Positions 33,329 to 53,920 of a DNA stretch of 64,000 nucleotides are shown piece by piece (positions within the stretch are counted from its first letter, which is position 1; each line of letters begins with the position of its first letter). The position numbers and the translations under genes were made by a program. Under the pieces are notes generated by a model. That model was not told the origin of the DNA. It did no database searches and was given only the letters and a program-made list of their open reading frames with translations. The stretch comes from Auriscalpium vulgare (Eukaryota; Basidiomycota; Agaricomycetes; Russulales; Auriscalpiaceae), in contig JAHBBC010000032.1 of the NCBI GenBank assembly GCA_019915015.1, forward strand, positions 62,001 through 126,000, in the 5' to 3' direction.

Positions 33329-34351
33329 ATGGCAGACACCGAAGACGAAAGCTCAGTTCGCCCTCTGAAAAGGCGTCGAGCCGCCGAATTGGACAAAGTG
33401 CGCACCTCGCAAGGAGATAACCCCTCCGAATCCCAAAAAGACGGGCGGGTCGCTCCATCGGATCCTCCAGGCGGTACGGTGCCGAGTCGGTGCGTCCAGA
33501 GCTCGGTCCACATCGACGCCGCGTCCTCCTCATTCAACGCAACTCAAAGTCATGAAGATGAAACTGAAGCGTGGAGTGCCCTGGAACGTCGCTTCTCGAC
33601 GATCTCAGATGAATCCGACGAGTCTGTCAGCAGCAAGTTGCCAGCATTGGATCGCCCTCTGTCGGGACCATTAATGTGAGTCGCATACTGTTGATTAGGC
33701 AGTAGTTGTATGTGCTGACATGTCGGCAGAACGCCCTTTCAATCCACACCCTCTACTCCGTCTCGCTTTCTGTATTATCCGGAAACATCTGAGGATGAGT
33801 CGTCTCTTGAGGCCGATGTGGCCTCTTCTCTTTTTCCCGGATCGTGAGTCCTTTCCTTCAATTCGTGATTAACAACCAGCAGCTGATAAACGCCGCTGCT
33901 CGTTAGGTCCACCAGTCGCTTGCCCGCAAACGACCTTCCGCGACGCGTCAGGGCTACGCAGGACCCGCGTCTCGTGCGGACATCGACTCTCCGCTTCAAA
34001 GATCTCTTCAAATCAGCGAAAGACCTGACTCGTCGTCGGGGTGCCCGGCAGCCCACACCCGAGATCATCGGCGAACGCGAACTCAACCCCCTGGACCCCA
34101 TCACGCATCGGCAATCCACGTACTCAGCCTCGGGCTCACCAGCTCGCGCGGCATCGTTGGAAGGATCCTCAGGAGAAGAGTCGGAGACAGAATTTTCTGT
34201 GCCGGCAGCGACGGGCTCCAAAACAACTCTCCCCTCCACGTCTGCGTCTGCATCCTCGTCGGTGTCCTTCAAGTCGTGGAACACAGTTTCCTCGCGCAAA
34301 TCGAAGATAAATATGTCCCAGCTTCCTCCGGGAACGCCTTTTCTACGGTAG
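33329..34351 (+). CDS. F1: small basic protein with conserved PPGTPFLR C-terminus
   Basis: First of five paralogues in the window; no named family known to me. There are three exons (33329-33675, 33730-33843, 33907-34351), 301 residues. It starts MADTEDESSVRPLKRRRAAE, with a basic KRRR cluster resembling a nuclear localisation signal. A Ser/Asp/Glu-rich region follows (STISDESDESVSS), then a basic amphipathic stretch LRFKDLFKSAKDLTRRRGAR, an acidic Ser-rich stretch (SSGEESETEFS), and the family tail SFKSWNTVSSRKSKINMSQ then LPPGTPFLR-stop. The start at 33329 was chosen because F2 begins with a similar MA-acidic peptide; the frame is also open upstream to 33278. Confidence 0.78.
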
Positions 34352-35055
34352 AGACTGTCTACTGGAATTCATTGTTCTGTTTTGCTAGAAATAGTTTTTT
34401 TCTTGTCTTGGGCAGAAAAGTTCTATCAGGCAAGTCTGAGGCTCGAGCGCTAAGTGTATGCCGATTCGATCGGCCGGCGGCTACACGTGAAGCTCAGTAA
34501 AAACGCGAAGTCGGCCGCCAGTCCTGTATGGAGGCGTAGGTCATCCTCTAGTCCAACAATGGGCCGAAATAGTCCGCTGCTGTCAGAACACCCTATATAC
34601 GTAATGATCCGTTATATACGTTATATACATCATGATATGTACGGGTATGCAATCGGCGGCAGCCTGCCACGCGTCGAGCCTGTAGTGCGCGCGCAGGCGG
34701 CGGCCAGCGACGGGCTCGGACTGCGAGGGAGGTGTCAAAGATGGAACCGAGAGGTGGCGCTGTAGCACGTCTCAGCGGAGAAGGGAGAGGTCAAACGAAA
34801 TTGTGACGCACAGGTGCTTTGAGTGCTTCACATCAAGACCTGGACGTGCCGGTAAGAGCGCAGGGCGACCGCGCCTATGGTACAGTTGTGTGACCTCGCG
34901 GGTGGGGAGCAGACTCGCTGTCTAGCGCGGGCTGAGCGCACGGTGCGTGGCGCAGGGCGCACTGTGGGCCTGAGACATGGGTGAGTGTGTGGGGAGCAGT
35001 CGGGTGTGAGTTGAGGGGATCGCGTCAGCACACCGGCGCTGCGCCGGCAACTCGC
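34352..35055. other. F1 to LTR intergenic region
   Basis: No gene seen. It contains a short AT-rich stretch with repeated tatacg motifs near 34593-34630 and then ordinary sequence up to the LTR boundary. Confidence 0.45.
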
Positions 35056-36388
35056 TGATACGCCTGGTTCTGCGGTGTGCGGAGATCTCACTTCAATTTT
35101 CGAACTTTCGTCAAGTCGAGAGTTTCGCTTCAGAGTCACCTGACTTCGGAATTTGGCCAGCAGTTTCAGAGGTTTCAACCCAGTCACTTCGGAACTTTCC
35201 GAAGTTGCGTGACTTCGGATTCCGAACTCGCACCGGTCTCGGCCCGCTAGCACAGCCTCCACGGATCTTTCCGAAGCGCCCGCACGTGATTCGGTCCAGA
35301 CTTCACAAGCCCATCATCATCAGACAGGCCCCAAACGTGATCCAGAGTCGAAACACTCACAGATTGTTGGGCTATGCCGCATCTAGGCCATATCCACTCC
35401 AGAACATTGCCCCCTTGTTCCCAGTATTGTCCCCTCCATTCCGACCCTACCTCGAGCCCTCCAGATGTGGTTCGCTGTGTTTCTAGCTGCGTCGAACCGC
35501 TATGCAACGCAATACTTCGGAACTTCGGACGATAGCCGCAGCGACTTCGGAACGCGTTCCGAAGTTAGGCGCACATTCCCACTGTGGAGTCCCTTATGTT
35601 TCATTGTCTTAGGTTTCATGACTACTCTTCTCAGGCTTCCTAGCAATGGCGTTCGACTTACCGTTTGCTTGCGACTTACTCATTTCTTGTGATCTTGACC
35701 CACTTGCTTCGTGTTTCGTTCTACTTATGCTCTTGTTTGTTCGCACGGTTGTATATTACTTCGGACTCACTCGTAGTATATATAGGACTTGTCAGTACAA
35801 TATTCTGCATCATATCATATGCCCCCTTCTTCCCCCTCATAGTGAGACTCACGCTAGAGACTCTCCTCGACCTCTCGCATTGTCAAAGCGTTTCTGACTT
35901 TGCACCTTTCGACTTCGACTTCGACTTCGCCTTCGCCGCACGCCGCACGTATAGTATTTGACTTCGACTTCGGATCTCGACTCCGACTTCGACTTCGCCT
36001 TTGACGCACGTATCGTATTCGCCTTTCGTACCCTCCTTTGTCATTCAACTTCGACTTCGACTCCATCCTCGACCCAATCACTTCGGCACTTCGACTCCAT
36101 CACCTCGGCACTTCGGAACCACGGCATTCAACTTCGACTTTGCCTATGTTGCATGACCACTCGACGCCCCGCAGATCGTAACATCCTCACACATCCTCGT
36201 CCTTCCTAGTTTGGATCACTCCCGAACTCACTGCTATCACGCTACGACCACCCCATTCCCACTTCGGAGACGCTCCCGGAAACTTCGGGACCACTGACGA
36301 CTCGCCCCTCACACAACGGTACCGTGCACTGCGCTCTAGGGATAGGTATACAAGACATTACCGCCCTACTACCGGCTGGTACCCATCA
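35056..36388 (+). repeat. 5' LTR (1,333 bp)
   Basis: Starts TGATACGCC and ends ACCCATCA. I found three differences from the 3' LTR by eye (offsets 997, 1121 and 1230). The LTR is packed with acttcgga and cttcgac motifs and contains a 22-bp palindrome at 35544-35565. Confidence 0.92.
35544..35565. repeat. 22-bp perfect palindrome in the LTR
   Basis: The sequence acttcggaacg is followed immediately by its reverse complement cgttccgaagt. The same palindrome recurs in the other two LTR copies. It could form a hairpin or bind a dimeric factor. Confidence 0.85.
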
Positions 36389-36392
36389 TTAT

Positions 36393-36410
36393 TGGAGCCC
36401 ACCGCGAGGG
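36393..36410 (+). other. candidate primer-binding site
   Basis: TGGAGCCCACCGCGAGGG begins 4 bp after the 5' LTR. PBS sequences start TGG because they pair with the CCA end of a tRNA. I could not assign the tRNA from memory, so this is positional evidence only. Confidence 0.45.
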
Positions 36411-36606
36411 GACCAAGTCAGTATTCCTCCGAAGCCCTCGGACGTGTCCACTCCCTTTGATATAGGTGTCGCATCTCCAATTAACTTCGGATTTCGAGCG
36501 CTCGATCGCAACAACCATCCGAACCTAGGCCCGATACTTCGCCTCCGCACGCATCATCCCTTCCACATCCCATTCACTTCGCCTCCTTTGCATCCCTTGT
36601 CTATTG

Positions 36607-38784
36607 ATGGCCTCGTATATGCCCCCTCGCCGCGCACGAACTGCACCGATGTTCGATCCCAAACAGCCCCGTAGGTTCTTCTCTGACCTTGAGAAGCTCA
36701 CCACGTCTGCGAACATCACCAGTGATCGCGCCAAGAAAGATTGGGCACAGAAGTACGTTGAACTTGACGAAGCTGATTTGTTTGACGCGATGGAAGTATT
36801 CTACGGTCCTGGTACCTATGACGACTTCAAGGAAGCAGTCGCGAACCTCTACCCAGGAGCCGAAGAAGACATCCGAAACTTCCGAACCATTGATCCAATT
36901 ATGTTCGACATCGCCCCAGCCGGAGGACCTCCAACTTCGCTCGTTTCCGAACAAATTGAGGCTATTGACACAGAGTTGGCCTGGCTGCGCGAGCAACAGG
37001 CTCTCGAACAAGAGTATGATGGCATTGCAGCAATGCACAAGCCATCCGAAGTATTCGACACCGTTCCGAACCTCTGCTATGTCACCCCCGTTCCTGTGCC
37101 GCTCACATCTTCTCATCGTCGCGAACCAGAAGACTGCAACATGACTTGGGTCACCGTTTGCTTCGACGCTTCGGATCCAGCGTTCGCAAGCGAGGCACAA
37201 GACCCCGCTGCCACGTCCTTGCCTTTGGAGCACTTCGCAAGCGCCCCGGAGCTTCGCTTCGCACCCATTGCACTGCGTACAACCATTGAACAAGTCCCGA
37301 ACCAAGACGCAGAGATACGCAGCGACGCGAACGACACCATCCCACTCACTCCACACCTCGGAACATTTCCGAGCTACCAAGGAGACGACGCACTACTCGT
37401 ACAGGACATCCGAACTACCATCCCCAACTTCGACACACTTCGCCCCATTCCCAGTGACAGCTACAGCCGCATTCCAATCGAACACTCGCAGTTCAACGTC
37501 TCGACGTTCATCATGCCCCGCATCATCGACAAGCACCTCTCCAACCTCTTCCGAACTTACCAACGCATGTTCGACACTGGAGGCATGTTCTCTGGTACGA
37601 AGTCGATCCTCGTCTCACACGAACTCATCATCCTTCGTCACATCCTCTCGACTGGCGCACACGACTTGCCTCTGTGGAACTTCGGATCACTTCGCAACTT
37701 CGACTTCGTCTCTCCAGCAATTGGCCACACTTCGACTTCACGTGGCATTGCGGGCAGCAATACCATCGTTCATAGCAACCCAGCGAAGCCGATGAAACAC
37801 TGCTACAATTGTTTCGGACCCAGTTCGCTTGGTTTTCGAGCACGCAGCTTGACTCTGCCAACCTTCGAGTTAGGAAACTTCGGATTCTTTCGTGGACTTC
37901 GGACGCCTCACATCCTTAGGAATCACATCACAGACATCGACCTTTCCTCCGACCACAGCATCTCGCACACCACAGCCGTCGCATCGACAGAGGAGTTACA
38001 ACTTCGTCGCATCAACTTCGGAGTATTCCTAGGCTTCACGTCCCTCTTCCTCGCGTTCGATCGTCGATTCCCACGGTACTTCGGAAGTACCGCGCCTCCG
38101 CTCGACCTCTCAAACCAACATCCTGTCTCAACGCATTCCTCCGACACTTCGCGTTTTGCACATGGACGCATCACCATGACTCGCATCTTCCTCTTCCACC
38201 ACGACGCACCCATCATCCTTTGCGACTTCGCCAAACTACTTCGGATCTTTGCCACATCACTTCGGAAACTCCATATGGCGCACCTCGGAATCCTCGCGCA
38301 CGTCGCGTATTGGGCTCTGACCGTGGACGGTCAGTATCAAAGTATGGAGGAGGTGATACGCCTGGTTCTGCGGTGTGCGGAGATCTCACTTCAATTTTCG
38401 AACTTTCGTCAAGTCGAGAGTTTCGCTTCAGAGTCACCTGACTTCGGAATTTGGCCAGCAGTTTCAGAGGTTTCAACCCAGTCACTTCGGAACTTTCCGA
38501 AGTTGCGTGACTTCGGATTCCGAACTCGCACCGGTCTCGGCCCGCTAGCACAGCCTCCACGGATCTTTCCGAAGCGCCCGCACGTGATTCGGTCCAGACT
38601 TCACAAGCCCATCATCATCAGACAGGCCCCAAACGTGATCCAGAGTCGAAACACTCACAGATTGTTGGGCTATGCCGCATCTAGGCCATATCCACTCCAG
38701 AACATTGCCCCCTTGTTCCCAGTATTGTCCCCTCCATTCCGACCCTACCTCGAGCCCTCCAGATGTGGTTCGCTGTGTTTCTAG
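36607..38784 (+). CDS. gag-like protein of the LTR retrotransposon, reading into the 3' LTR
   Basis: One intronless frame of 725 residues. The N-terminal part (MPPRRARTAPMFDPKQPRRF, FSDLEKL, then the FKEAVANLYPGAEED region) matches the layout I know from gag polyproteins of basidiomycete gypsy-like elements. The remainder has no recognisable enzyme domain. A short HCYNCFGP is only a vestige of a zinc knuckle. From 38354 on the frame runs through the 3' LTR for about 143 codons, so its C-terminus is LTR-encoded. Codons are heavily biased to Phe-Gly, Phe-Asp and Phe-Ala pairs because the DNA is saturated with cttcg motifs. Confidence 0.7.
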   Translation: MASYMPPRRARTAPMFDPKQPRRFFSDLEKLTTSANITSDRAKKDWAQKYVELDEADLFDAMEVFYGPGTYDDFKEAVANLYPGAEEDIRNFRTIDPIMFDIAPAGGPPTSLVSEQIEAIDTELAWLREQQALEQEYDGIAAMHKPSEVFDTVPNLCYVTPVPVPLTSSHRREPEDCNMTWVTVCFDASDPAFASEAQDPAATSLPLEHFASAPELRFAPIALRTTIEQVPNQDAEIRSDANDTIPLTPHLGTFPSYQGDDALLVQDIRTTIPNFDTLRPIPSDSYSRIPIEHSQFNVSTFIMPRIIDKHLSNLFRTYQRMFDTGGMFSGTKSILVSHELIILRHILSTGAHDLPLWNFGSLRNFDFVSPAIGHTSTSRGIAGSNTIVHSNPAKPMKHCYNCFGPSSLGFRARSLTLPTFELGNFGFFRGLRTPHILRNHITDIDLSSDHSISHTTAVASTEELQLRRINFGVFLGFTSLFLAFDRRFPRYFGSTAPPLDLSNQHPVSTHSSDTSRFAHGRITMTRIFLFHHDAPIILCDFAKLLRIFATSLRKLHMAHLGILAHVAYWALTVDGQYQSMEEVIRLVLRCAEISLQFSNFRQVESFASESPDFGIWPAVSEVSTQSLRNFPKLRDFGFRTRTGLGPLAQPPRIFPKRPHVIRSRLHKPIIIRQAPNVIQSRNTHRLLGYAASRPYPLQNIAPLFPVLSPPFRPYLEPSRCGSLCF
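38344..38353 (+). other. polypurine tract candidate
   Basis: atggaggagg lies immediately before the 3' LTR, where plus-strand DNA synthesis of LTR retrotransposons is primed. It is purine-rich apart from one T. Confidence 0.6.
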
Positions 38785-39686
38785 CTGCGTCGAACCGCTA
38801 TGCAACGCAATACTTCGGAACTTCGGACGATAGCCGCAGCGACTTCGGAACGCGTTCCGAAGTTAGGCGCACATTCCCACTGTGGAGTCCCTTATGTTTC
38901 ATTGTCTTAGGTTTCATGACTACTCTTCTCAGGCTTCCTAGCAATGGCGTTCGACTTACCGTTTGCTTGCGACTTACTCATTTCTTGTGATCTTGACCCA
39001 CTTGCTTCGTGTTTCGTTCTACTTATGCTCTTGTTTGTTCGCACGGTTGTATATTACTTCGGACTCACTCGTAGTATATATAGGACTTGTCAGTACAATA
39101 TTCTGCATCATATCATATGCCCCCTTCTTCCCCCTCATAGTGAGACTCACGCTAGAGACTCTCCTCGACCTCTCGCATTGTCAAAGCGTTTCTGACTTTG
39201 CACCTTTCGACTTCGACTTCGACTTCGCCTTCGCCGCACGCCGCACGTATAGTATTTGACTTCGACTTCGGATCTCGACTCCGACTTCGACTTCGCCTTT
39301 GACGCACGTATCGTATTCGCCTTTCGTACCCTCCTTTGTCATTCAACTTCAACTTCGACTCCATCCTCGACCCAATCACTTCGGCACTTCGACTCCATCA
39401 CCTCGGCACTTCGGAACCACGGCATTCAACTTCGACTTTGCCTATGTTGCATGACCACTCGACGCCCCGCAGATTGTAACATCCTCACACATCCTCGTCC
39501 TTCCTAGTTTGGATCACTCCCGAACTCACTGCTATCACGCTACGACCACCCCATTCCCACTTCGGAGACGCTCCCGGAAACTTTGGGACCACTGACGACT
39601 CGCCCCTCACACAACGGTACCGTGCACTGCGCTCTAGGGATAGGTATACAAGACATTACCGCCCTACTACCGGCTGGTACCCATCA
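38354..39686 (+). repeat. 3' LTR (1,333 bp)
   Basis: Same length as the 5' LTR. The three differences noticed are at 39351 (A for G), 39475 (T for C) and 39584 (T for C). In each case the 5' LTR has CpG and the 3' LTR has the deamination product. Confidence 0.92.
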
Positions 39687-40517
39687 GCGTGCTGTTGCGC
39701 GTGCCGGGACGCGCAATGCACGACAAGGCGGGCAAAGGGCGCGTGGGCTTCCGGCGCGGGCGGTACGTCACATCTCCCTCGACGTGGTCCTTCCTCTCGC
39801 GAGAAAGAATACTTACCTCCGCGAGCGAGCTTGGAGCTCGCTCGCGGGTGGCGAGCAACAAAACAAGTACATATCAAGAAATAGAATCACACTGACACGA
39901 ATACATGGCTCATCAGTGCCCCCTCCCCGTTGGCCGCGACGCGACTTTTCAACCAAACCTCCTCCAAGAAACTTTTCCTCCAAGTACACCTCCCCGTCTT
40001 CCACCTAGCCCCTCGCCCCGCGCTCAAATATCCACCAGTCCCATGCTGTCGGCCTCACCGCGGCCCAATGCCGTGGACTGTGCACAGAATATGGCGGCGA
40101 AGAAGCGACGCACTCTGGTGCACACGGAGCGACGCGCGAAACGACGCGAACGCGGTGCTGTCCCGCCGTACGCGCCGTCGCGGCCGCTGCGCCCTATCCC
40201 TCCCTCGTAGTGGAAGCCTTGCCCGGAGACGATTGGGTATGCGGTCTGCAGGGGCAGAGGCATGTAGTAGAGCGGGGGGAGGTTGCCGTGGGCTGGTACA
40301 ACGACAAGGAGGGCCACCGCAGGGTAGAGGAATAGTGGTTGGTTGTAGTTGATGTTATCCTGAATCCACTGATTGTTGTAGTGGTTCGACATTGCCTTGA
40401 TGCGAGGGCGTCAGCATTTGTGAGGTTGAAATGCTACAAAAGACTGACACGGTGTTTGGATGATGAAAGCGTGAAGGTCGAGTTCGCCGCGACCGCGAGC
40501 ACTTAGTCGCGTCGCGC
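39687..40517. other. unique sequence between the 3' LTR and the inverted solo LTR
   Basis: No recognised gene. A minus-strand frame at 40024-40392 (MSNHYNNQWIQDNINYNQPL..., Tyr/Pro-rich) may be part of a small unknown gene cut by the LTR at 40518. On the minus strand a gtaagt donor-like site lies just after the hairpin at 39819-39847, so fragments of an old spliced gene may survive here. Confidence 0.4.
39819..39847. repeat. 13-bp perfect inverted repeat with 3-nt loop
   Basis: Arm ccgcgagcgagct (39819-39831), loop tgg, arm agctcgctcgcgg (39835-39847). This would be a very stable GC-rich hairpin. I know no role for it; it is noted as structure. Confidence 0.85.
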
Positions 40518-41894
40518 TGATGGGTACCAGCCGGTAGTAGGGTGGTAATGTCTTGTATACCTATCCCTAGAGCACAGTGCACGGTACCGTTGTGTGAGGG
40601 GCGAGTCGTCAGTGGTCCCGAAGTCTCCGGGAGCGTCTCCGAAGTGGGAATGGGGTGGTCGTAGCATGATAGCAGTGAGTTCGGGAGTGATCCAAACTAG
40701 GAAGGACGAGGAAGTGTGGGGATGTTACGATCTGCGGGGTGTCGAGTGGTCGTGCAACGTAGGCAAAGTCGAAGTTGAATGCCGTGGTTCCGAAGTGCCG
40801 AGGTGATGGAGTCGAAGTGCCGAAGTGATGGAGCCGAAGTGCCGAAGTGATGGAGCCGAAGTGCCGAAGTGATTGGGTCGAGGATGGAGTCGAAGTCGAA
40901 GTTGAATGACAAAGGAGGGTACGAAAGGCGAATACGATACGTGCGTCAAAGGCGAAGTCGAAGTCGGAGTCGAGATCCGAAGTCGAAGTCAAATACTATA
41001 CGTGCGGCGTGCGGCGAAGGCGAAGTCGAAGTCGAAGTCGAAAGGTGCAAAGTCAGAAACGCTTTGACAATGCGAGAGGTCGAGGAGAGTCTCTAGCGTG
41101 AGTCTCACTATGAGGGGGAAGAAGGGGGCATATGATATGATGCAGAATATTGTACTGACAAGTCCTATATATACTACGAGTGAGTCCGAAGTAATATACA
41201 ACCGTGCGAACAAACAAGAGCATAAGTAGAACGAAACACGAAGCAAGTGGGTCAAGATCACAAGAAATGAGTAAGTCGCAAGCAAACGGTAAGTCGAACG
41301 CCATTGCTAGGAAGCCTGAGAAGAGTAGTCATGAAACCTAAGACAATGAAACATAAGGGACTCCACAGTGGGAATGTGCGCCTAACTTCGGAACGCGTTC
41401 CGAAGTCGCTGCGGCTATCGTCCGAAGTTCCGAAGTATTGCGTTGCATAGCGGTTCGACGCAGCTAGAAACACAGCGAACCACATTTGGAGGGCTCGAGG
41501 TAGGGTCGGAATGGAGGGGACAATACTGGGAACAAGGGGGCAATGTTCTGGAGTGGATATGGCCTAGATGCGGCATAGCCCAACAATCTGTGAGTGTTTC
41601 GACTCTGGATCACGTTTGGGGCCTGTCTGATGATGATGGGCTTGTGAAGTCTGGACCGAATCACGTGCGGGCGCTTCGGAAAGATCCGTGGAGGCTGTGC
41701 TAGCGGGCCGAGACCGGTGCGAGTTCGGAATCCGAAGTCACGCAACTTCGGAAAGTTCCGAAGTGACTGGGTTGAAACCTCTGAAACTGCTGGCCAAATT
41801 CCGAAGTCAGGTGACTCTGAAGCGAAACTCTCGACTTGACGAAAGTTCGAAAATTGAAGTGAGATCTCCGCACACCGCAGAACCAGGCGTATCA
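40518..41894 (-). mobile_element. solo LTR of the same family, inverted orientation (1,377 bp)
   Basis: On the minus strand this is the same LTR, with the same TGATACG start (at 41894) and CCCATCA end (at 40518). It is 44 bp longer, which equals two extra copies of a 22-bp unit (gatggagccgaagtgccgaagt) near 40806-40872. No internal region is attached, so it arose by LTR-LTR recombination or is one end of a rearranged element. It keeps some CpGs where the other two LTRs have TpG. Confidence 0.9.
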
Positions 41895-41929
41895 ACGCGC
41901 ACCGCGCTCGCGCTGCCGGGACAGCGCAC

Positions 41930-42480
41930 GCCCTTCCTCCATGAGGTCCGCGGCTGGCGCGCGTCCGTAGCTGACTCCGCCGCCCAGGCGTGGTCATCAA
42001 GTGCGGCAACTCCTCAATGTGCCCGTCGATCCGCGTGGCGTGCTCAAGCTCATCCGCACGATCGAGCGCGAGACCAAGGTCAGCGAGGAGGCGCGCACTG
42101 GCGCGGGATCCGCAGTTTGGGCGGCGCCGTGCAGCGCACGAGCGACGAGGACTCGCCGAGCGGGACAGGCAGCAGCGGGAGCGGGACGACCAGCGCGCTC
42201 GACGACGTTGTCATGAAGCACGCGCTCGGCGAGCACCCGTGCTGCTCCACTGCTCGGCAGGCATGGGCCAGGCGCGTTCGTCGCGGTCGACGCGGTGCTC
42301 GACGGCGTGCGCCGCAAGGGCCTGCTCGAGACGAAGGCCGCAGTGGCCACGGGCAATGCTGGTTCGCAGGAAGCGACAGCGGCGCGAGCGCCAGCGGGGT
42401 CGGAGCGGGAACGACGCGAGGGGGAGCGGGACCAGCAAGTACTGAGGCTGCAACGCACCTTGTCCTCTCACACCCGGACG
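41930..42480 (+). pseudogene. protein tyrosine phosphatase remnant, frameshifted
   Basis: Pieces of a classical PTP domain lie in different frames: NVPVDPRGVLKLIRTIERE (about 42015-42075), then PVLLHCSAGMGQ around 42236-42270, where HCSAG is the start of the HCX5R active-site loop. VAVDAVLDGVRRKGLLE follows in a third frame. Compared with the family pattern HCSAGxGRTGxF, bases are missing after HCSAGMG, which removes the catalytic Arg and shifts the frame. The N-terminal half is absent, and the solo LTR ends about 40 bp upstream. It is not functional. Confidence 0.6.
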
Positions 42481-43396: not shown

Positions 43397-46157
43397 TCAT
43401 CCTTCATCTTCATCTTCATCTTCATCTTCATCTTCATCTTCATCTTCATCTTCATCTTCATCTTCATCTTCATCTTCATCTTCCTCAAACTCAGTCTCGT
43501 CGTATGCGCCGTTTGGTAGATGAGTACTGCGAGGAGGGGCGCGATGCGGAGGGCTAGGAGACGGTATCTTCCTTTTCGTCGCGCGCACGGTATTCGGCTC
43601 TGGCTCTCCCTCAACTTCTGGAATGGTGCGCGCTACTATCAACGCCTCTTCGATGCACTCGAGGAATTGGTCGTGCGTGATGTTGCTATTGGAGATAAAC
43701 CCCTCCGCTACGCCATGCCACATGTAGCCGTGCAGTTTCCTCATGCTCGGCTTCATGAAGTCAAAGTAAGGTGTGAAGTGGACGAGGAATCGCTCATAAC
43801 TGTTGACGATGCCAACTTTGCGGTCGCCGTTGGTGCCGCGTCTTCCTGTGACCAATGGGAGCACCTTCGAATTCCATGCCAAGTCGACTGAACCTCCGTG
43901 GTACGCCTTCGTCGGACGCACATAGGCGCAGCAGAGGTAGGATAGGTGCCAGAATAATCTCTCGAGATCGTGGCGGAAGGTCTCAGTGACATTTTCTGGG
44001 GAAATGGCCAGCTCGATTGGTAGCGACAGCAGGTTGGTCTGGGCGATGTCATTGTACACGCGTCGTCAAGCTGAACTATGAGAGAACTCACCGGTCGGGG
44101 AGCCTTCGCCGTCTTCCTATCCGGTTGATTGGTATAGATGGCGTGGTCAAAGCTTGAGATCATCCCGCGGCCAACCTTGACAGAGGGGTGAGGTGGGCGA
44201 GATCCCTCGAGAGCCTGTACAAATGTCTCCAAGCCGAAGTTCCTGATGGTGAAGTCGCGATGAAGAATGTGCTTCTCGGTCAGGATCTTATGCGCTGAGA
44301 CGTTGGTCAGTGAGAGATAAAGCGTACTCAACTGATTGTGCTTACACTCGATTACGTCTTTGAAGACATTCAAAAATTCGATCTTGGTCGTAAAGTCAGT
44401 GATCGGGAGGACGATCGAACGTGTCAAGAGCCGGCAGTGCCTCCGGTAGGCGCAGACGTCGTCGACCTCCACGACTTGCTCGTCCTTGACGACCTGGTCC
44501 TCGACCGCGACGTCCAGGTCGTCCTCGTCCTCGTCCTCGAGCTTGACCTTGACCTCGACATCGCCCGGCGCCGTGGACGTCCGGGGCCTCTTCAGCTGCG
44601 AGCGCGATCCGTACGCTGCGTCGTCTCTGTTCAGCTTCTTCTTCATCCCCTGACGGCCCTTCGACCCCTCCTCTCCTTGCTCCTCGGCTTTCTTGACAGC
44701 AAGTATTCGCTTCCGGGCGGCCATAACAGCAGCTATCTCCTCGAGCACCTTGGCAACATGCTCCTGACTCGGTGGAGAGCGACGCTTCGCCGCTAACACG
44801 GTGTCGGATGGGTAATCGTCCAGAACCACTTCCTCTTCCTGAAGACCGCCTTCTTCGTCCTCTTCCTCTTTGTCCTGAGGGCCGACGAGCACCGGTACTC
44901 GAGCGCCGGCCGCCCTGGCTGCTACAAGAAATGATCCGTTGAGGTGCGTACGGCTCTGGTCGGGATAGGAGTCTCTGAGCGTGTAGGTTTTGCAATCCTT
45001 CTCGACGACGTATGCCCAAGAAGCCGGCCCGTGAAGGGAGGACTCGTTGTAGAGCGTGTAACGGAATTTGTAATACTCGCCCCGGTACTTGACTTTTGCG
45101 ATCTCGCCTGTTGACGACCATTCGACCGTCTCGTCGATACCCAAGTACCGATCTGGCGCGTAGATGAGGGTCAAGAGGAGGCGAAAGAGGCGATCATTGT
45201 CGTTGGAGTATCTGTATTGGACTCTGCCGTTGCGATCAAAGATGTCAATTTGGATAAAATGGCCAGAGATTGAGATTGCGAGCACGAAGGATCGGCCAAG
45301 CTGATGGTCCAGGATCAATTTTGCTTTGTGCCGTATAGTTTCCTGGATGCGATGTGGAATATCAGCAGACCGTGTGAGCTCCACAACCGCTGCGTTTTGC
45401 GACCACTTGAATCGGCCAGTGCGTTCAACCTCGCCGTACAATTCAATCGGTATGGGAGCAGCGTCTGGTTTTTGGACGTCAATACCCTCCGGCGGCTGGT
45501 CACAGTATCGTGACGTGATTTTGCGGCGGGGTGTCTAAAGGACGTTTGAGCAATATCCGGCAAAATGAAAGGACTACGCACCAGTGCGTCGCCGTCAAGC
45601 GATCCGATTGCCCTGGTAATACCGTCGCAATATGCTTCAAAACTTCGCTCCGTGAACTCCGCGAACGACTTTGCATAGATCTGCAGCTCCTGGTTCCCCG
45701 CGACTGCGTTATATAGTCTGGTGTATTGACCGCTGGGAAGTGTCTCCACAAAGGCCGTGGCTTGCTGGTCGACGCCCATGTTCTTGACGGCCGGTAACTC
45801 GGTCGAATCGAGCAGAGCAGTCATGTTCACGTTTCCCTGGCGTAGTCTGTCAATATGACCCTGATGGCTCGCCACGTCACCGGAATGCTCTTGAGGTGAG
45901 GCTTTGTGAGGCTTGATGATCGTCTGCGGTTCTACCGGCGGTTTGACGATGGCGACGGCGGTATTCGCGCGGCGGTGGGCGGCGGCAGCTTGCTCGGACT
46001 GCTCGGTCGCTGCGATGGCTAGGTTCTGCGCAACGGCGGCAGCGGGGGGGGCAAGGGGGACTGCAGCGTATTGGTCGTTGTATGGCACCGAGTCGGACAA
46101 TTCGGTTACATAGGTGGGAACGCGTGAAGGTGCCCACGGGCCACGACGCTCGTACAC
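43397..46157 (-). CDS. FunK1-type fungal protein kinase with C-terminal Asp-Glu repeat
   Basis: FunK1 kinases are a basidiomycete-expanded kinase-like family of largely unknown substrates. There are four exons (45582-46157, 44346-45534, 44092-44294, 43397-44038), 869 residues. The N-terminal part has ATAFVETLPSGQY-type sequence. The family's FKWSQNAAVVELT and PDRYLGIDETVE follow, then a long acidic/basic insert (about residues 370-510). The catalytic HILHRDFTIRNF carries the His-Arg-Asp and Asn of the kinase loop. GMISSFDHAIY stands where DFD/DFG occurs, with Ser-Phe-Asp retaining the Asp. Next come LLSLPIELAI and the Asp/His-containing helix TFRHDLERLFWHLSYLC. The protein ends in about 13 Asp-Glu pairs encoded by a hexanucleotide repeat. 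It is head-to-head with F2. Confidence 0.85.
43402..43479. repeat. hexanucleotide microsatellite (cttcat)13 inside the FunK1 coding end
   Basis: Thirteen uninterrupted cttcat units, 78 bp. On the coding (minus) strand they read as alternating Asp and Glu codons. Unit changes would keep the frame and change only tail length. Confidence 0.95.
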
Positions 46158-46375
46158 GTCCTCTTCCTCTTTCCTCCTCTTCCTCTACCTATTCCGAATT
46201 CAAAACGCACAAGACTGCGTCCGCCCGCCCCTCCGACTGTGTGGCCGCTTCCACTGCACACATACTGATCAATCTTCCCTCCGACATTGCCTGAGTCTGC
46301 CTCCAAGCTCATAGTAGTATTACGTGCGTTACATTATACGCTTCACCTGTGCGTTTTCATCTTTTTGTGCAGGTC
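46158..46375. promoter_or_regulatory. divergent promoter between FunK1 kinase and F2
   Basis: Only 218 bp separate the two start codons. A polypyrimidine stretch ending tttttgtgcag lies 3 bp before the F2 ATG and may be the acceptor of a 5' leader intron, leaving even less promoter space. Co-regulation is likely from layout alone. Confidence 0.5.
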
Positions 46376-47413
46376 ATGGCAGAACGGCCTCGCAAACGAC
46401 GGGCCCGGGTCGATACAGAGGAAACCCTTACAGAACGCCCTCGCAGGAGGATGAGAGCCAACTTTGAAGAACTGCCTCCACGCGGTGGACGTTCCGAAAA
46501 CCTCCAAACACCCAGTGCCAGGGAGCTGCGGCTGCGCCGCCGCAATGAACGTGCCGAGAACCCCGCCTCGACCGCACCTCATACGACTGGTGATGTCCCG
46601 CCGTCACATCCCGCGCCACCACGCTCCCTCTGGTCGCAGCCCATTCCAGAAGAGGACGAGCAGTCCTCGTTGTTGGCGCCGACCCTGCCTTTGAATCTTA
46701 CCACAGACGGTTTATCGCTGTGAGTGCTCTCTCTCGTTCAGCTGCCTTCAGATCGCCGACGCTGTGCACGCAGCTACGGCCCCACCAGCATATTTCACTT
46801 AGCTGGAGTCGGTAATCCCTCGGCATCTGAACCGGCCCCGCCTCGTCGCAGCAGCAGCGGTGTTCGCGGCGGCGGTCGTGGTCGCGGTCGCGGTCGCGGT
46901 CGATATGTCGGATCAGGATACCGGAAGACGTACAATCAGTATGGCGGCATGGCCCCACGACGTCAACTGCCGTTACCAGCCGCGACCGAGCGTGAACGTC
47001 ATCCAAAAATCCCTCCACAGCCTCCAGGACCGGTGAAGAAAGACGACAGGGACTCTGGCGGTGCAGGAAAGAAGCTGAAAGGCATATTTTCCGGCCTCAA
47101 ACGCCGTTTGTTCGCCTCGTCTCAAGCCGGCCGCGGCAAACAACACCCCGCTGCCAGTTCGTCAGAGACTGTCATTGAAGCACTCGATAACATGCCGGTA
47201 CTTCCCAGTCACGCTCCAGCTCGAGCTGTTTCGATGGAGGTGTCGTCTGCGGACGAGTCAGATGTCGATGGCTCGATGCCCGCGGCAATGGTCTCTAGAA
47301 CAACATTTATGTCCGCATCCGAGGTGTCCTTCAAGTCGGTCAACACCCTTTCCTCGAGAAAGTCGAAGATGAACATGTCCCGAGTTCCCCCAGGAACGGC
47401 GTTCTTGCGGTGA
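46376..47413 (+). CDS. F2: small basic protein with conserved PPGTAFLR C-terminus
   Basis: Two exons (46376-46719 and 46774-47413), 327 residues; the acceptor at 46773 was chosen on phase and length. It starts MAERPRKRRARVDTEE, then a second basic cluster ERPRRRMRANFEE, PSARELRLRRRNERAE and the acidic IPEEDEQSSLLAPTLP. Exon 2 has an Arg-Gly stretch (GGGRGRGRGRGR), the amphipathic basic segment GKKLKGIFSGLKRRLF, an acidic ADESDVDGSMPAA and the family tail VSFKSVNTLSSRKSKMNMS then RVPPGTAFLR-stop. The basic clusters suggest nuclear location. It faces the FunK1 gene. Confidence 0.8.
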
Positions 47414-47809
47414 CTGTCAATGTCGTTGTCCTGGGACCACTCGAGACATCAATATTTGCGTCGTGGGTCAATAGGCAGAAAGCGCTCCGGGCGCAGCCAC
47501 GCGGCGGGCGCTTCCTTCAATCATGATGAACTCTTTGGTTTTCGACCTTCCTCGTGCTTCGGACCCATGACAATCCATCAGCCGCTTCTCACGCTGCCTC
47601 TCTCTTCGTGCCCACCGTATCACACTCCCCTGTGTCCCTGTCCACTGCTTGTGCATACACCTCGCGTAGCCGTTTCCTGCTCTCACACAAACCATAACAT
47701 CCCGCCAGCCAACCTTTCCAAGTCGCCGTTATCTCCTTGTGTGCTATCTTCACGCGTGCGCCCTCTATTCTCTTGCCAGCCTCAGCTATTAATGCAATTC
47801 GCACAGATC
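47414..47809. other. F2-F3 spacer
   Basis: No gene seen. It includes a C/T-rich stretch before F3 typical of a fungal leader. The frame of F3 is open further upstream, but no family resemblance extends into it. Confidence 0.5.
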
Positions 47810-48760
47810 ATGACAGACCTTTCCCGCAAGCGAGCAGCGGATTCAGATGATGCGCTCACGCCGCGCCCTCAGAAGAGGCTAAGAACCAACGTAGACCACC
47901 CCCGTACGCCCACTCGCGTGCCCGAGCCGGTCATACGAGGACATGAAGCGACTGCTCGACCTCCCAGCGCCAGAGAGCAGCGTTTACGCCGCCGCGATGT
48001 CGCGCGTGGACATTACGATCGGCTCGCCTCGACTGCGCCGTGCCGCGAGGGTTCACATGTCCCCTCGGATTCCGGATCCGGGGCGCCCAATTCCCTAGTG
48101 TCCATCATCGAAGAGGACGGATAGTTTCCCTCGTTGGCACCATCCCTGCACCTGCAGACGATCTCATCAGCTGACTCGCCATCGTGAGTGTGTTCTATCA
48201 ATTGCTCCCAGATGACCGACGCTGAACGGACTTGCTTCTACAGGGTCACCCCTCGTCTCGGGCGTGGTCGACCTCCCGGGGCGAAGACTAAGTCAGATTC
48301 TCCAAGGCCGCTCACACCCGAAAAGAAGAAGCGCGGGCGTCCTGGAAAGACCGCTTCCCAGTCTCCGGGTGTGTTGAGCAATGTCGACAAAGATCCTGGT
48401 GGGCCAGGCAAGGCGCGGAAGGGGTTTTTCTCTGAACTCAAGCGCCGTGCCCGCCTGCCGTCGTTCACGTCATCTCGACGCAGCAGCCGCGGCACACTCG
48501 ACTCGGGATCCAGTCCCATTTCCACCGTCCACGACACTCCACGACAGGCGCCCCCGCGTCTGGGCGACCTTCCTGCGGACGATTACCAGTGGTCTGCAGA
48601 TGAATCAGGCACTGAAAGTTTTGTGCCCGCGGTGACAGGCTCCAGAACAACCTTCACATCCGTATCTGAGGTGTCGATTAAGTCGGTCAACACCCGCTCC
48701 TCAAGAAAGTCGAAGATGAACATGTCCCTCGTTCCACCAGGAACGGCGTTCTTGCGGTGA
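47810..48760 (+). pseudogene. F3: F-family gene with an in-frame TAG at codon 105 (recent pseudogene or readthrough)
   Basis: Two exons (47810-48183, 48244-48760) join to 296 codons in one frame. Exon 1 has MTDLSRKRAADSDDA, RPQKRLRTNVDHPR, PSAREQRLRRRDVARG and SIIEEDG. The TAG at 48122-48124 follows directly. Its place in the alignment with F2 (IPEEDEQ) is a Gln codon, so one CAG-to-TAG change explains it. Downstream everything is preserved: FPSLAPSL, the gtgagt donor at the same place as F2, KKKRGRPGK (AT-hook-like), ARKGFFSELKRRARLPSF, ADESGTESFVPAV and the tail SIKSVNTRSSRKSKMNMS then LVPPGTAFLR-stop. I saw no splice choice that removes the stop. Confidence 0.75.
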
Positions 48761-48857
48761 ACCGAGGCGCTGTTGATGAGGAATCGATCGGACATGATAG
48801 AGAGAGTCAGTATTCGGGACATGTAGCAGGTATATATTAGATGGAAATTCAACGAGT

Positions 48858-51164
48858 TCACTTTTTCGAACAGTTGTGCATTTTCTTGTGTTCCTTCCAG
48901 CCCTCTATCTGACATTCCTTGTTGCAGAAGAACGCCCGCCCGCCGCATTTTCCTACCCGAGTTCCACTTGTCAGCACATTTCTCAAAGGCAGGAAGTATT
49001 CCGCTCTGACCTGCGCACTTCTTCCACTGGCCCGCATTCCCGCACGAAAAACATCGCTGCCACGGGCCGGCTTTTGCCGTCCGCGCCTCCTCCTCGATAT
49101 CGACGCCCTCGAAGAACCCGCCCGGCACGTCGAGCTTCAGCTGCCACAGGTCGCCGAAGCTGCGCGATATCGGGTGCTTGCGGTTCGGCACGAAGTCCGA
49201 GTTTGTGTACCCGCCAAAGAGGAAGACCTTGCCCGATTCGGGGTCGGACACTAGGTGCGACAGCGCGCGGTATGTCGGGAAACCTCTGGTCAGGACCTGC
49301 TTCCATCGCGGCGGCGAGCCGTCGGCGGGCGCCGGGTCGAGCATGAAGGTATCCGCGTAATAGGTGAATTGGAACAGGCCTTGGTCGGGGAATACAGTCG
49401 GCACGTTAGGGCAGTACCCGCCGAACACGAATGCCTTGTCCAGTTTCGTATTCTGTTGGCGCGTCGTCAGACATAACACACATGTACTTAGCATGTTCAA
49501 ACTCACGTATGTGCTTGCGAGTTCCGACCGCGGACTCGGCGGGTTGCCCGCTATCCTCTCCCGCCGCCAAGACTCTGCCGCGATGTCCCAGCTCCAGCAG
49601 TCGTCGAAGCCGAACCCAATCTTCGCCCCGTTTGGCTGTCCCCGGTCCTGCGCGCCCGCGCGGTCAGCTTCCCCGTACAGTAACCACAGGCGTTCTCCTT
49701 TTCCGTCAACCCACAGCGCCGCGTGCCGGCGTGGCCCCGGCGTGGTGACATCTGGTACCAAAGGACCCGTCGTCCCAGACAGCGTGCGCCACAAGAGCGT
49801 CTCCAAATCAAGCTCGATGAGCAAGTTGTTGCCAATCGTGTTCGTGTAGTATGTCCCGCCGAATATGTACAGCTTCCCGCGCACGATGGCCATGGAGTAC
49901 TCTGAGAGCTCAGAGCTTGGGTATGGCCAGTACTTCGGGTCTCTGCCAGACCACTTCGTCGCGATCTTACCCCACTTTTCTTCCTTGAGGTCGAAGTAAT
50001 GGAGCTCGCGCTTGCCGGAGAAGAGGTACGCGCGGTCGGTCGCGTCGTCCAAGCGCATTTGCCAGGCAGCTATTGTGTCGGCCCTCGGTCGACGCGGAGG
50101 CTGAGGGAGGGTACGCCACGCATCCAGCTCGTTGAGATCGATGCATTGAAAGTCGTTGTAGTATGGCCCCAGGGCTTCCTTCATCCCGCCGCACACGTAG
50201 AATTTGCCTAATCGCAGGATGAGGACGAGAGAGCAGATCATGTGCACTAGTCCTACCTTTCCAAACAAAGCTGGAGAACGCTTGGCGTGGTTGTATGGAA
50301 GTTCCAGGTCTTTTCAGCTCGATCTTCTGCCAGCTTCCGAGGACCTGCAGCGTTGGTTGCGTGACCTGCCACTTCGCTGTAATCTGCGGGTCGGGATGCC
50401 GATTGTGTGCCCTTTGAACAGTGCGGTCCATAGGTACAAGCTGCTGCAAAGCCTGTTTGTTGAGCGGTGGGTGGTCCGGGAGGGATATGATATTGATGGA
50501 CGCCGTCCAGAGACGGTGCGTGGCAGCGGCGGTGTTTCCGAGGGAAAGGAAGACGTCAGACGAGCGGGAGAGCGCTCTCAGGCGGTGGGTGAAGTAGTCT
50601 TGGCTTTGAAGGTTGAAGTCGAACCAGTCTATTGAGGACATGAGGAGATAATGGAGCCGACGGTACGGCATACGCACCAAACACGGGGGGATCTTTTTGG
50701 ATGAAAGCATTCTTGCAAATGACGTTCACCTCTTCAAGCCATGCCAAGGCCTGAGTTCAGAGTCAGGATGCCACCTGCGGTTTGTACGATCGAGACCGAC
50801 TTCGCACCTTTTCCACCTCGCCCGAACCAAGGCAACATTGGGCAATATCGTCGCAGAGGCCCATGACGGCAAAGAGACGATGGTAGTCAATTGCCGAGTA
50901 CTTCTCCAAGCGTACGCCGCCTTGAATCCTCGCGTCCTGCGGTAGGACAACGTCGTCGCCAACGATGGTATTGACTCCCGCGAGAAACTTCTCCTGCGCA
51001 TCTGCATACCGTGCCGCCTTGAGGAGCCTTATGCCTTGGTCGCGCACATCGCTGACACCAGAAACAGCGAAAGACGAGACGCCCGCTAACGAGTTGGCCA
51101 TCATATTCTGCAATGACTGAAGCAGCCCTGCAGGAATATCGCCCCCGAAGTTCAGCGGGTCCAT
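48858..51164 (-). CDS. kelch-repeat protein with C-terminal MYND zinc finger
   Basis: Likely a cytoplasmic or nuclear adaptor; no substrate is known. The N-terminus MDPLNFGGDIPAGLLQSLQN leads to a helical TPR-like part (LLKAARYADAQEKFLAGV, ALAWLEEVNVICKNAFIQK, DYFTHRLRALSRSSDVFLSL). Kelch blades follow: GKFYVCGGMKEALGPYYND, KLYIFGGTYYTNTIGNN, ERLWLLYGEADRAG, KAFVFGGYCPN and GKVFLFGGYTNSDFVPN. The C-terminal finger, completed across a last intron (GPWQRCFSCGNAGQWKKCAG then KCGGRAFFCNKECQIEGWKE and HKKMHNC), has the C-C-C-C-C-C-H-C spacing of MYND domains. It ends at 48858, convergent with F3 (97 bp apart), and is divergent from F4. Canonical introns occur throughout. Confidence 0.87.
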
Positions 51165-51753
51165 CGGAGTGACAGTGGTCTGCCACTAGCGACCTTGAGA
51201 ATTCAGAGAAATCTGTTGCAGGAAGGCGGTGTGCTGCGAAAAGGTTGTTGGGGATTCGAAGGGGGTTTGGCGCGGCGGCCAAAACCGTACATGGCCTACT
51301 ATGTATCTCCCACCGTGACCCAGCGACGTAACGTTACTACCTTTGTCCAAACTTTTCGCGCATGCGCTCGATGAAGGCAAATTGTGGTTCACCGACTGGA
51401 GGGCTGCAGCGCGGTCGGGGACTTGTCATGAAGGTTGACGATGAACACGAGCGCTCATTCGAAGCAGGTGAGCGTCAACCATGCACTGGCGTTTGGATGG
51501 GATGATGTCGCCTTTTGCTTCTGCACATTCCAACAGCCAACTCTCTCCAAGGACATCAGCTTGCTTAGACGATCTTTTTCCTCGCCAGTGCTGCCCCTGT
51601 TGCTCTCTTCGCTCGTGTTCGTGGCCCCGGTTGCCTAGCGCGCGTTCCTCCAGAAGTTTCGGGACCTCACAAGTGAATGCTCCTCTGGTATGTTTTTCTC
51701 TCGCCTTTCCCTGCTATCCACGGCTCATTTCGATTTCAGCCACGACGTTATAA
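51165..51753. promoter_or_regulatory. divergent intergenic region between kelch/MYND gene and F4
   Basis: 589 bp between two start codons. A short upstream frame with a good donor (about 51435-51470, cag|gtgagc) could be an alternative or upstream 5' exon of F4. I prefer the start at 51754. No TATA box was identified with confidence. Confidence 0.4.
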
Positions 51754-52674
51754 ATGGCAACTGTCGAGCAGCGTAAGTAGTAGCGAAGGAAGTCGCATTG
51801 GTTCCTCATTTGACCCTCGCGACGTAGTATCCGGATCCATCATCGAACAGAGCACGCAGGCACCTCAGACCACCTCTCCTGCCACTCCCGAGCAGAGGCC
51901 TGGCTCTCCGTCGCACCGCCCAGCGAACGTACGGACGCCGCGCGATGGAGTCCTTTTCGATGTGCAACCAACGCCAGAGACTCTGCGCGGTAGGCGGATC
52001 CAGCGAAGGCTCTCTCAAATCACAGAAGAAGATGGCTACGACTCGACTATCTCACGTTTAAGTTCCTTGAGTCCGACCCGGACGACGGTCATCCAGTCCG
52101 CGCTGGAGACGCCCTTTCGGACACACGCAGCCTCAGGGCTTACTAACCTTATATCCCTGGGATTTCGACCTACTAAGACATATTCAAGATCTTCTGGCCG
52201 GAACCGTCATCATTCGCATGAGGCTCAAAGTCAAAACAAATTCAAGGCCATCATCACGGGTCTCGTGCGGGCGACGCTGACACCTTTCAAACGCGTGCTA
52301 AGGCGCAAGCACTTCTCTAGCGCTGATATTGAGACCCGGGACAGGTCACCGGTCACTCTAGTGGTTGGTGATGCGAGCGTTTCACCGATACTAGTTCCAG
52401 GGATTTCGGGTTCGTCAGACCTCCTGTGAATTTCAGGTCTTTTGCTGACAGCTGCCCAGACTCACCAGCGAGCTCGCTGCCAGGCTCCGCGTTGGACTTG
52501 AATTACGGGTCAACCTATCCGCCCGAAGCCGCCATCCATGGCACAGGCTCAGAGTCAAAAACTACGATCGCATCGTCGACGGGGGTCTCGTACATTTCCA
52601 GGCACACGACGAATTCGTACAAGGACAAGATGAATCAGTCGATCCTCGCGCCTGGCACACCGTTCCTGCGATAG
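51754..52674 (+). CDS. F4: small basic protein with divergent APGTPFLR C-terminus
   Basis: Three exons (51754-51772, 51828-52409, 52460-52674), 271 residues. The first exon is only 19 nt (MATVEQ) and ends at a perfect gtaagt donor. The second intron (gttcgt...gctgacagctgcccag, 50 nt) removes a stop codon and joins two frames. Features in order are TPRDGVLFDV, RGRRIQRRLSQITEEDGYDS (the EED block of the family), FKAIITGLVRATLTPFKRVL (amphipathic basic segment), GSESKTTIASSTG and the tail VSYISRHTTNSYKDKMNQS then ILAPGTPFLR-stop. It is the most divergent tail of the five (Ala for the first Pro, Gln for Met) but clearly homologous. Confidence 0.72.
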
Positions 52675-52841
52675 GCGGCTGATTTAAAATTGAAGAGGCT
52701 AGAGAAGCTGGATAAAACATGTCGGCTACGTACTGAATGACCCTCCCCGGCGCTTCCCTCCGATCCTAGCAGTTCAGAGAGGCGCTTTACTCTCACCTTT
52801 CACGGACAGGTTTCCCAGCCCTGGCTTATCGGATGCGCCAG

Positions 52842-52849
52842 TATATAAA
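52842..52849 (+). promoter_or_regulatory. TATA box candidate of F5
   Basis: cagtatataaaacg lies 118 bp upstream of the proposed F5 start. Confidence 0.55.
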
Positions 52850-52959
52850 ACGTCAGTACTGCGCCTTCTTCGCCTCTTCGAAAGACTCCCAATCACTGTA
52901 TTCGAGGCGTTGTCCGTCCTTCGTATCAACGATCTCTGCCTCCACATACAAGCATCCAC

Positions 52960-53920
52960 ATGCGTGAGTATTCCAGCTGTCTTCGTATGCTCTCAACCAG
53001 ACCAGGCAGCAGCGGCCATCAGATCAGCGAAGCGCCGCCTCGAGGACGAGGGCTCCGAGCAGCCTACAAAGAGGCAGGCCATTGAACAGAACTCCGATGT
53101 CGAGCAAATTACTGCTTCAGACGGTCACTGCGACGCCGAATCGAGTGTACCAGAGTGTACCGGTGGACCCCCTCAGCCACATCCCTCGCCATCTGCTACC
53201 CCAGCATCTCAATCGGCTGCAGGACATGCACAGCGCCAAACTCCCTTTCCCCGTCTCCTTCCTCTTCCCGACATCGCGGAGGAGGATGAACTTACGACGG
53301 GCCAATCCACACCCTTTCTGTCCTCGCATCACTCAAAGTACGAGCATGAGGTCTTGCACTGCTACTTCAGACCCCTACTTCGCTCGCGGGGCAAAAAGTC
53401 CCAGCAGAAAGACGGATCTGCCCCATCGACCGCTTCCGATACCGTCACACAGACAACGTCCCCGTCCCCGTCGCCGCGGCAAGGTCTTCTGAAAGGAGTT
53501 GTGTCGAGTTTTGCGCGTCGGGCGAGCCAACCGTCGCGCCGCCAGCGTCAATCGCAGTTCCAAGCGCCCTTGGATGCCATGACCTCCCTTCTGAAGGCCC
53601 AGCCTCTCGATTCAAACCAGATGCGACCTAGCGCATCGAAGGGCAGAGAAGCTGCAGTCCTCCAGGAACATCATGTCTCGGAGCCCCCGGCCGACTCTCC
53701 ACAGTATTCATTGGACAGCGCGTCGCAGGACCACAGGATGTACGCGGAGGGCGAGACGTTGATGGAAGGCCGTCTTGAGACGGGCTCAATAATGACGATC
53801 AACACGAGTGCTACTACAGCATCAGTCGCGTCGCAACACAAGTCGTTCAAGTCTGTCGATTCGCGCAAGTCGAGGATGAACATGTCTATCGTTCCGCCGG
53901 GGACGCCTTTCCTGCGGTAG
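52960..53920 (+). CDS. F5: small basic protein with conserved PPGTPFLR C-terminus
   Basis: I propose a 4-nt first exon (ATG C at 52960-52963) with a perfect gtgagt donor and acceptor at 53009, giving MPAAIRSAKRRLEDEGSEQP and 304 residues. Two neighbouring acceptors are equally in phase, and an unspliced start upstream (52910) also reads through. Next come TKRQAIEQ (second half of a possible bipartite nuclear signal), a Pro/Ser-rich part, LPDIAEEDELTTGQS (EED block), QGLLKGVVSSFARRASQPSR (amphipathic basic segment), a Ser-rich region and the tail SFKSVDSRKSRMNMS then IVPPGTPFLR-stop. The start is uncertain; the rest is solid. Confidence 0.75.

Follow-up and report, generated by a model that had tools for sequence, protein, structure and literature searches.

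Short peptides placed exactly at the C-terminus of otherwise unrelated proteins serve as ligands or targeting tags, PDZ ligands, PTS1 and EEVD being familiar cases. Here we describe a peptide of about 30 residues, hereafter the tail, which stands at the end of about eighteen genes or copies of genes in the genome of the pine-cone mushroom Auriscalpium, and which was recognized as the common end of five genes (F1 to F5) in a window of 64,000 nucleotides (C32:62001-126000, within contig JAHBBC010000032.1; C numbers denote contigs of the 51.6 Mb, 96-contig assembly). Like the known tags, the tail is short, exactly C-terminal and carried by unrelated proteins, but it differs from them in its length of ~30 residues, its ladder of Ser/Thr residues and its PPGTxFLR end, a consensus that fits none of them; unlike them, it was found only in Auriscalpium, in searches of limited reach. 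Of the LxVP, mitogen-activated protein kinase D-site, PDZ, PTS1 and 14-3-3 motifs compared by eye, none fits every tail. Two further systems provide partial parallels. The fission yeast kinase Pat1 is inhibited by Mei3, a small, largely disordered protein, which a title cited there terms a pseudosubstrate of ran1 (PMC7815208). Phosphorylation clusters primed by CK1, such as PER2 FASP, follow a pSxxS consensus, a serine spacing of three (PMC7012598). Literature searches found no occurrence of four tail peptides, no work on a lineage-specific C-terminal motif with a pseudokinase (publications on Agaricomycetes pseudokinases and orphan-gene motifs looked irrelevant) and none on the A. vulgare genome together with a kinase.

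Pattern counts against reversed controls ruled out a chance origin of the shared tail. The coding pattern P-G-T-x-F-L-R-stop matched the genome 13 times and the reversed pattern not once, which argues that the tail is no accident. Eleven of these sites are intact tails, another (C37:184384) is a broken copy, and the last has TGG in place of the stop. Freeing one residue (PGxxFLR-stop) gave 19 matches versus nine for the reversed pattern, adding one real tail plus several chance sites. The pattern MN-x4-PPGT, which includes neither the stop nor FLR, had 11 genome matches versus zero reversed, and all 11 lie in tails that end a reading frame, in agreement with the original description of the peptide as strictly C-terminal.

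With five single tails as genome queries, 20 places, those of the queries among them, matched at E<=0.001 in one or more of the searches: seven on C32, three each on C3 and C37, two each on C18 and C33, and one each on C13, C16 and C24. Eighteen of them are intact tails at a stop; of the other two, the one on C13 has decayed and C37:149694 lies outside the set that was read. These counts are lower bounds; weaker matches on C4, C6, C22, C82 and at C37:240283 fall outside them. A weak tail at C33:137339-137416 on the minus strand, which ends ...NSIASYKERMNQTILPPWMASLR at a stop, retains the MNQ half and has an altered PPGT turn. The family of five genes first proposed was thus an undercount, for the tail also ends degenerate kinases and proteins with a predicted SH3 fold. 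Beyond this genome, a protein search with the five tails joined returned A. vulgare matches only (four proteins), but it also missed P0001, a known tail bearer (P0001-P0005, P0006 and P0007 are labels for A. vulgare proteins compared with loci of this genome). The word filter was therefore too strict, and absence of the tail from other fungi is suggested only weakly by this search; the search with Ran1-type kinases described below is a better test, for kinases only. Against solved structures the tail gave nothing meaningful, the single match having an E value of 6.1.

We then compared constraint on the tail with that on the proteins that carry it. Over the last 18 codons of 16 intact tails, a set that omits the broken C37 copy and the near-identical C18 and C3 copies, the proportion of nonsynonymous differences (pN) was 0.29 and that of synonymous differences (pS) 0.73, with pN<pS in all 120 pairs; synonymous sites in the tail are near saturation while the protein is conserved. 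A slower rate in the tail than in the rest had been proposed as a check, and it was observed: relative to P0001-P0005, tails differ at one of 150 positions and bodies at 88 of 1259 after removal of 222 positions in messy stretches with introns or frame changes (Fisher p=0.0006), or at one of 150 versus 206 of 1481 with nothing removed. The canonical Ran1-type kinase on C29, by comparison, matches A. vulgare P0007 over 294 residues and two exons with zero differences, whereas the five tail-gene bodies differ by ~7%. When flanks reaching as far as 400 bases past the stop on its 3' side were compared by BLASTN, no pair among 17 loci matched (E<=0.01); 5' of the stop there were 25 matches among these loci, 13 of which extend to within one base of the stop. 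Plain duplication was ruled out by pN<pS and the lack of a shared flank beyond the stop. The same data bear on the idea that the tail is a neutral or mobile leftover, spread by duplications or transposons and functionless. Near-identical copies (two on C18 and C3:2130086), decayed copies and the transposon-like repeats beside F1 would suit it, but the protein is conserved despite near-saturated synonymous sites, tails have changed more slowly than bodies relative to A. vulgare, and no flank is shared past the stop, and we regard this idea as very improbable. As judged from these comparisons of gene sequence, the tail is a homologous peptide, under purifying selection, C-terminal and present on several kinds of protein.

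As to how the tail reached its hosts, shuffling of an exon unit whose intron borders are fixed is not supported, since introns lie at varying distances from the tail and the tail of one host, kinase B, is in the same open frame as its C-lobe. For 13 tails whose hosts are F, kinase or SH3 proteins, the closest other tail belongs to the same class in ten, is tied in two and belongs to a different class for F4; each host class therefore probably gained the tail on one or a few occasions, with duplication afterwards. All-versus-all BLASTP of eight bodies stripped of their tails (the last exon of F1, P0001, P0005, P0003, P0004, P0002, P0006 and the C24 host; F3, F4 and C37:194208 were outside this set) gave a sole match at E<=0.01, between the two SH3 proteins, so even the F1, F2 and F5 bodies show no match to each other.

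The anatomy of the tail was read from an alignment of 17 tails, 16 from this genome and one from A. vulgare, with positions counted back from the C-terminus and column -33 excluded as a start-codon artefact in two rows. Ser at -19, Asn at -13, Pro at -7, Gly at -6, Leu at -2 and Arg at -1 are invariant in all 17, and Lys at -17 is present in 16; S-19, N-13 and K-17 played no part in choosing the copies, for which the tail reading required P/A-G-x-x-x-L-R ahead of the stop. Ser or Thr occupies positions -28, -25, -22, -19 and -16 in 12, 17, 17, 17 and 12 tails, respectively, a spacing of three that holds in 75 of 85 cells in phase versus 17 of 136 between (column-shuffle p=0.0009). Ser and Thr swap at -25 and -22, which suggests that the hydroxyl is what counts there. 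The serines of the NMS and RKS segments, originally put forward as phosphosites, are less constant than this: NMS has Ser in eight of the 17 tails and RKS has Ser/Thr in 12, and the constant hydroxyls are those at -25, -22 and -19. In its spacing of three the ladder resembles pSxxS clusters primed by CK1, for example PER2 FASP (PMC7012598); it differs from them in sitting inside a conserved C-terminal peptide, and its phosphosites are putative. These features would also be expected of a C-terminal degron, whereby a ubiquitin ligase would read the tail and phosphorylation of the ladder would time the destruction of a set of regulators. The frame-ending position, the Leu-Arg end, the pSxxS-type ladder and an F body modelled without confident structure would all accord with such a signal; ~30 conserved residues are, however, long for a C-degron, and nothing points to a ligase. 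We consider a degron unlikely.

Two of the kinase hosts are relatives of a known regulatory family. Kinases A and B, in the 10-13 kb region of C32, have a Pkinase domain with the tail at the end; PF00069 matched the N-lobe exon of kinase A (E=1.5e-21) and the C-lobe exon of kinase B (E=7e-8). Together with P0006 they are homologues of Ran1/Pat1 kinases, and several of the listed relatives of kinase A are titled 'negative regulator of sexual conjugation and meiosis'. They differ from Ran1/Pat1 kinases in that catalytic residues are changed and the C-terminus of the C29 type is gone, with the tail in its place. By eye, kinase A has HRS for HRD, NFG for DFG and an altered Gly loop, and kinase B has HRS for HRD and NF for DFG, so the catalytic aspartates of HRD and DFG are missing in both. 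Among Ran1-type relatives (120 listed out of 140 at E<=1e-40), HRD is present in 114 and DFG in 114 of the 120. The paralogue on C29, 79% identical to the kinase A C-lobe, has GYGGYG, HRD and DFG intact and no tail. The only tail bearer among the 120 listed is A. vulgare P0006 (HRN for HRD, altered Gly loop, DFG kept), although 25 of them are of <=302 residues, several marked partial, and could hardly reveal a tail. A further tail-bearing kinase, at C37:194208, has HRN and DLD; its nearest relative in the genome, on C28, is 49% identical, and no tail was found on C28. Canonical Ran1-type kinases of some Russulales (L071, P0008-P0010) have a C-terminal peptide of their own, LRxARxWLFSGKFFAxAA; 76 of the listed relatives exceed 560 residues, and six of these matched a loose pattern for it.

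Two readings of the tail rest on this kinship. The tie to Ran1/Pat1 is circumstantial and drawn by analogy: two hosts are degenerate copies of this kinase, which in fission yeast is inhibited by Mei3 (PMC7815208). By description, the F proteins may be likened to Mei3 as small disordered proteins that would lie in reach of a Ran1-type kinase. The tail could then be a Mei3-like pseudosubstrate or substrate of the intact Ran1/Pat1-type kinase on C29, tuning a kinase that restrains meiosis. The presence of the tail on two degenerate kinases of Ran1 type is in keeping with such a role, as are the F proteins, which are small, basic and seemingly disordered where Mei3 is small and largely disordered (PMC7815208), but SH3 and other proteins also bear the tail, and an inhibitory peptide has no need of a C-terminal position; we hold this role to be doubtful at best. 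Equally doubtful is a wider proposal, that of a new module in which a phospho-switchable C-terminal tag would have spread onto duplicated and since degenerate meiosis kinases, SH3 proteins and disordered nuclear proteins of a single mushroom lineage and wired them to one hub, plausibly the Ran1/Pat1 growth-meiosis switch, with the tail proteins as Mei3-like decoys or pseudosubstrates.

A second class of hosts, on C3, C18 and C33, has a predicted SH3 fold. The AlphaFold2 model of P0003 reached block-wise predicted local distance difference test (pLDDT) scores of 74-91 over residues 81-170, except for a loop at 121-140 (48-60), with a whole-model mean of 52. In a Foldseek search with this model, 17 of the top 20 matches carried SH3 titles (ranks 1-16 and 20), and ranks 1-8 were all SH3 with probabilities of 0.96-1.00; no match reached E<=0.001, the best having E 0.023. 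These hosts differ from known SH3 domain proteins in bearing the tail and in their sequences: three SH3-like domain pieces matched no Pfam family at E<=10, and the SH3 alignment, searched by sequence against solved structures, gave no meaningful match. No tail lies near two further relatives of the SH3-like domain, at C3:1930931 and C20:516235. The two loci on C18 of this genome (G000) and C3:2130086 (L047, L048 and L049) are near-identical copies of one SH3-type tail locus whose tail ends PPGTVNLR. Among the remaining hosts, that on C24 has no assigned fold, no Pfam match and no paralogue found, and those on C16 and at C37:140759 are unclassified. The C16 copy (L024:1858-2124, minus strand) may encode a protein of fewer than 90 residues with only an acidic stretch and the tail, possibly a competitor peptide or a relic.

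One motif on several kinds of head in one genome is also what would be expected of a homotypic assembly motif, in which tails would bind one another in an amyloid- or beta-strand-like manner and so mix degenerate kinases, SH3 proteins and F proteins. Known fungal amyloid signalling motifs have a further copy at the N-terminus of a receptor. No such copy of the tail was found among the 11 MN-x4-PPGT genome sites, all of which are C-terminal, although diverged copies could escape this pattern. In our opinion PPGT also looks poor as an amyloid sequence, and homotypic assembly seems quite unlikely.

We give an even chance to the reading of the tail as a lineage-specific C-terminal docking tag. On this reading, an ancestral coding segment of ~30-45 codons would have become the terminal portion of genes that are otherwise unrelated. 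The recipients would be Ran1/Pat1-type kinase copies in which catalytic residues are gone, another degenerate kinase, proteins with an SH3 fold, disordered basic F proteins and others, and the segment would have been retained because a single common partner reads it. The tail would consist of two halves. The first would be a ladder that contains Lys and has Ser/Thr at -25, -22 and -19 and often at -28 and -16, followed by K/R-M-N; the second would be a carboxylate-anchored turn and hook, PPGTxFLR-COOH. The hook would bind a putative receptor via its free C-terminal Arg, and the ladder would be phosphorylated stepwise, its spacing fitting CK1-type pSxxS, and thereby switch binding. The tag would bring different heads to one place or set them competing.

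Several points weigh against a docking tag. The tail proteins are known here from gene sequence alone, and a receptor may not exist, as self-association or a degron would give equal traces. Because the reading script required G-6, L-2 and R-1, their invariance is in part a product of that choice, and pN is biased downward because the copies were picked by tail protein similarity. The Ser/Thr period was spotted post hoc in aligned rows related by descent, and the out-of-phase column -20 has Ser in ten of the 17 tails. Several copies are decayed or damaged: three on C13 have FLPG where FLR-stop is expected, a kinase at C32:33109 has a degenerate tail, the copy at C37:184384 has a broken frame, and F3 contains an in-frame stop. 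Weaker copies end differently and still at a stop, as PPWMASLR at C33:137339 and as PPDKPFLR at C2:994063.

The five F genes all lie on the plus strand of the window. As originally claimed, their frames end in a common peptide exactly at stops 34351, 47413, 48760, 52674 and 53920; the peptide is near-identical in four and divergent in F4, identity to the F1 tail over 33 residues being 73% for F2, 70% for F3, 61% for F5 and 55% for F4. F1 (33329..34351) is modelled with exons 33329-33675, 33730-33843 and ~33907-34351, GT-AG splicing and no internal stop; its third exon stays open with three of the acceptors tried, and its tail of 33 codons (34250..34348) ends SRKSKINMSQLPPGTPFLR. F2 (46376..47413; tail 47312..47410), whose counterpart in A. 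vulgare is P0001, has a spliced model without internal stop (exons 46376-46719 and 46774-47413) and runs from an RKRR-type basic cluster at the N-terminus through EEDE and KKLKGIFSGLKRR to the tail. F3 (47810..48760; tail 48659..48757) has a first exon from the ATG at 47810 to 48183 and a second from ~48244, with the phase checked by hand; a TAG at 48122-48124, in frame with the ATG, falls at the EED block of exon 1, so F3 is possibly a pseudogene or spliced in another way. F4 (51677..52674) has a putative start codon and open frames at 51677-52429 and 52372-52674 that would be joined through a short intron; its divergent tail (52573..52671; SYKDKMNQSILAPGTPFLR) is closest to that of C16. F5 (52960..53920; tail 53819..53917) is spliced without internal stop from exon 1 (ATGC, 52960-52963) across an intron (52964-53012) to exon 2 (53013-53920), and its start, MPAIRSAKRR..., is similar to MSALRSAKRR within A. 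vulgare P0005.

The common layout ascribed to these genes stood in part, as read by eye. The basic N-terminus is clear in F1, F2, F3 and F5, and its clusters resemble nuclear localization signals, so that the F proteins may be nuclear. An exact EED block is present in four of the five and absent from F1, and of the basic segment LKGIFSxLKRR, F2 and F3 have a clear version and the other three a looser one. The suggestion that the F proteins are disordered agrees with an AlphaFold2 model of P0001, run with four relatives, which lacked confident structure (mean pLDDT 49), and the statement that they contain no named domain held: the five F frames, that of F4 without its tail exon, matched no Pfam family at E<=0.01, and P0001-P0005 matched none at E<=1.

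Other features flank the F genes. Between F1 and F2, at 35053-41897, lie three copies of a ~1.07 kb transposon- or long terminal repeat-like repeat, two direct (35053 and 38354; 3298 bases apart) and one inverted (40829-41897, 99%). Adjoining the F cluster is a fungal protein kinase gene on the minus strand (43753-45534; PF17667, E=3.3e-22), and the minus strand of a (TCATCT)14 microsatellite at 43397-43483 translates as an acidic ED repeat. A Kelch-repeat gene on the minus strand (48862-50313; PF24681, E=4.5e-24), whose end resembles a MYND zinc finger by eye, is convergent with F3, and its long frame continues antisense through the F3 tail. Rfam searches of the window returned nothing at the gathering score.

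If the tail is indeed a docking tag, Auriscalpium would show plainly, in nature and within one lineage, how a linear motif can be acquired by several unrelated genes and be more constrained than the proteins that carry it. The birth of such a tag and of a network around it would be directly testable, and the tail itself would offer a handle for fishing out its receptor. The link to degenerate meiosis kinases would be of interest for fungal sexual development and for pseudokinase research.

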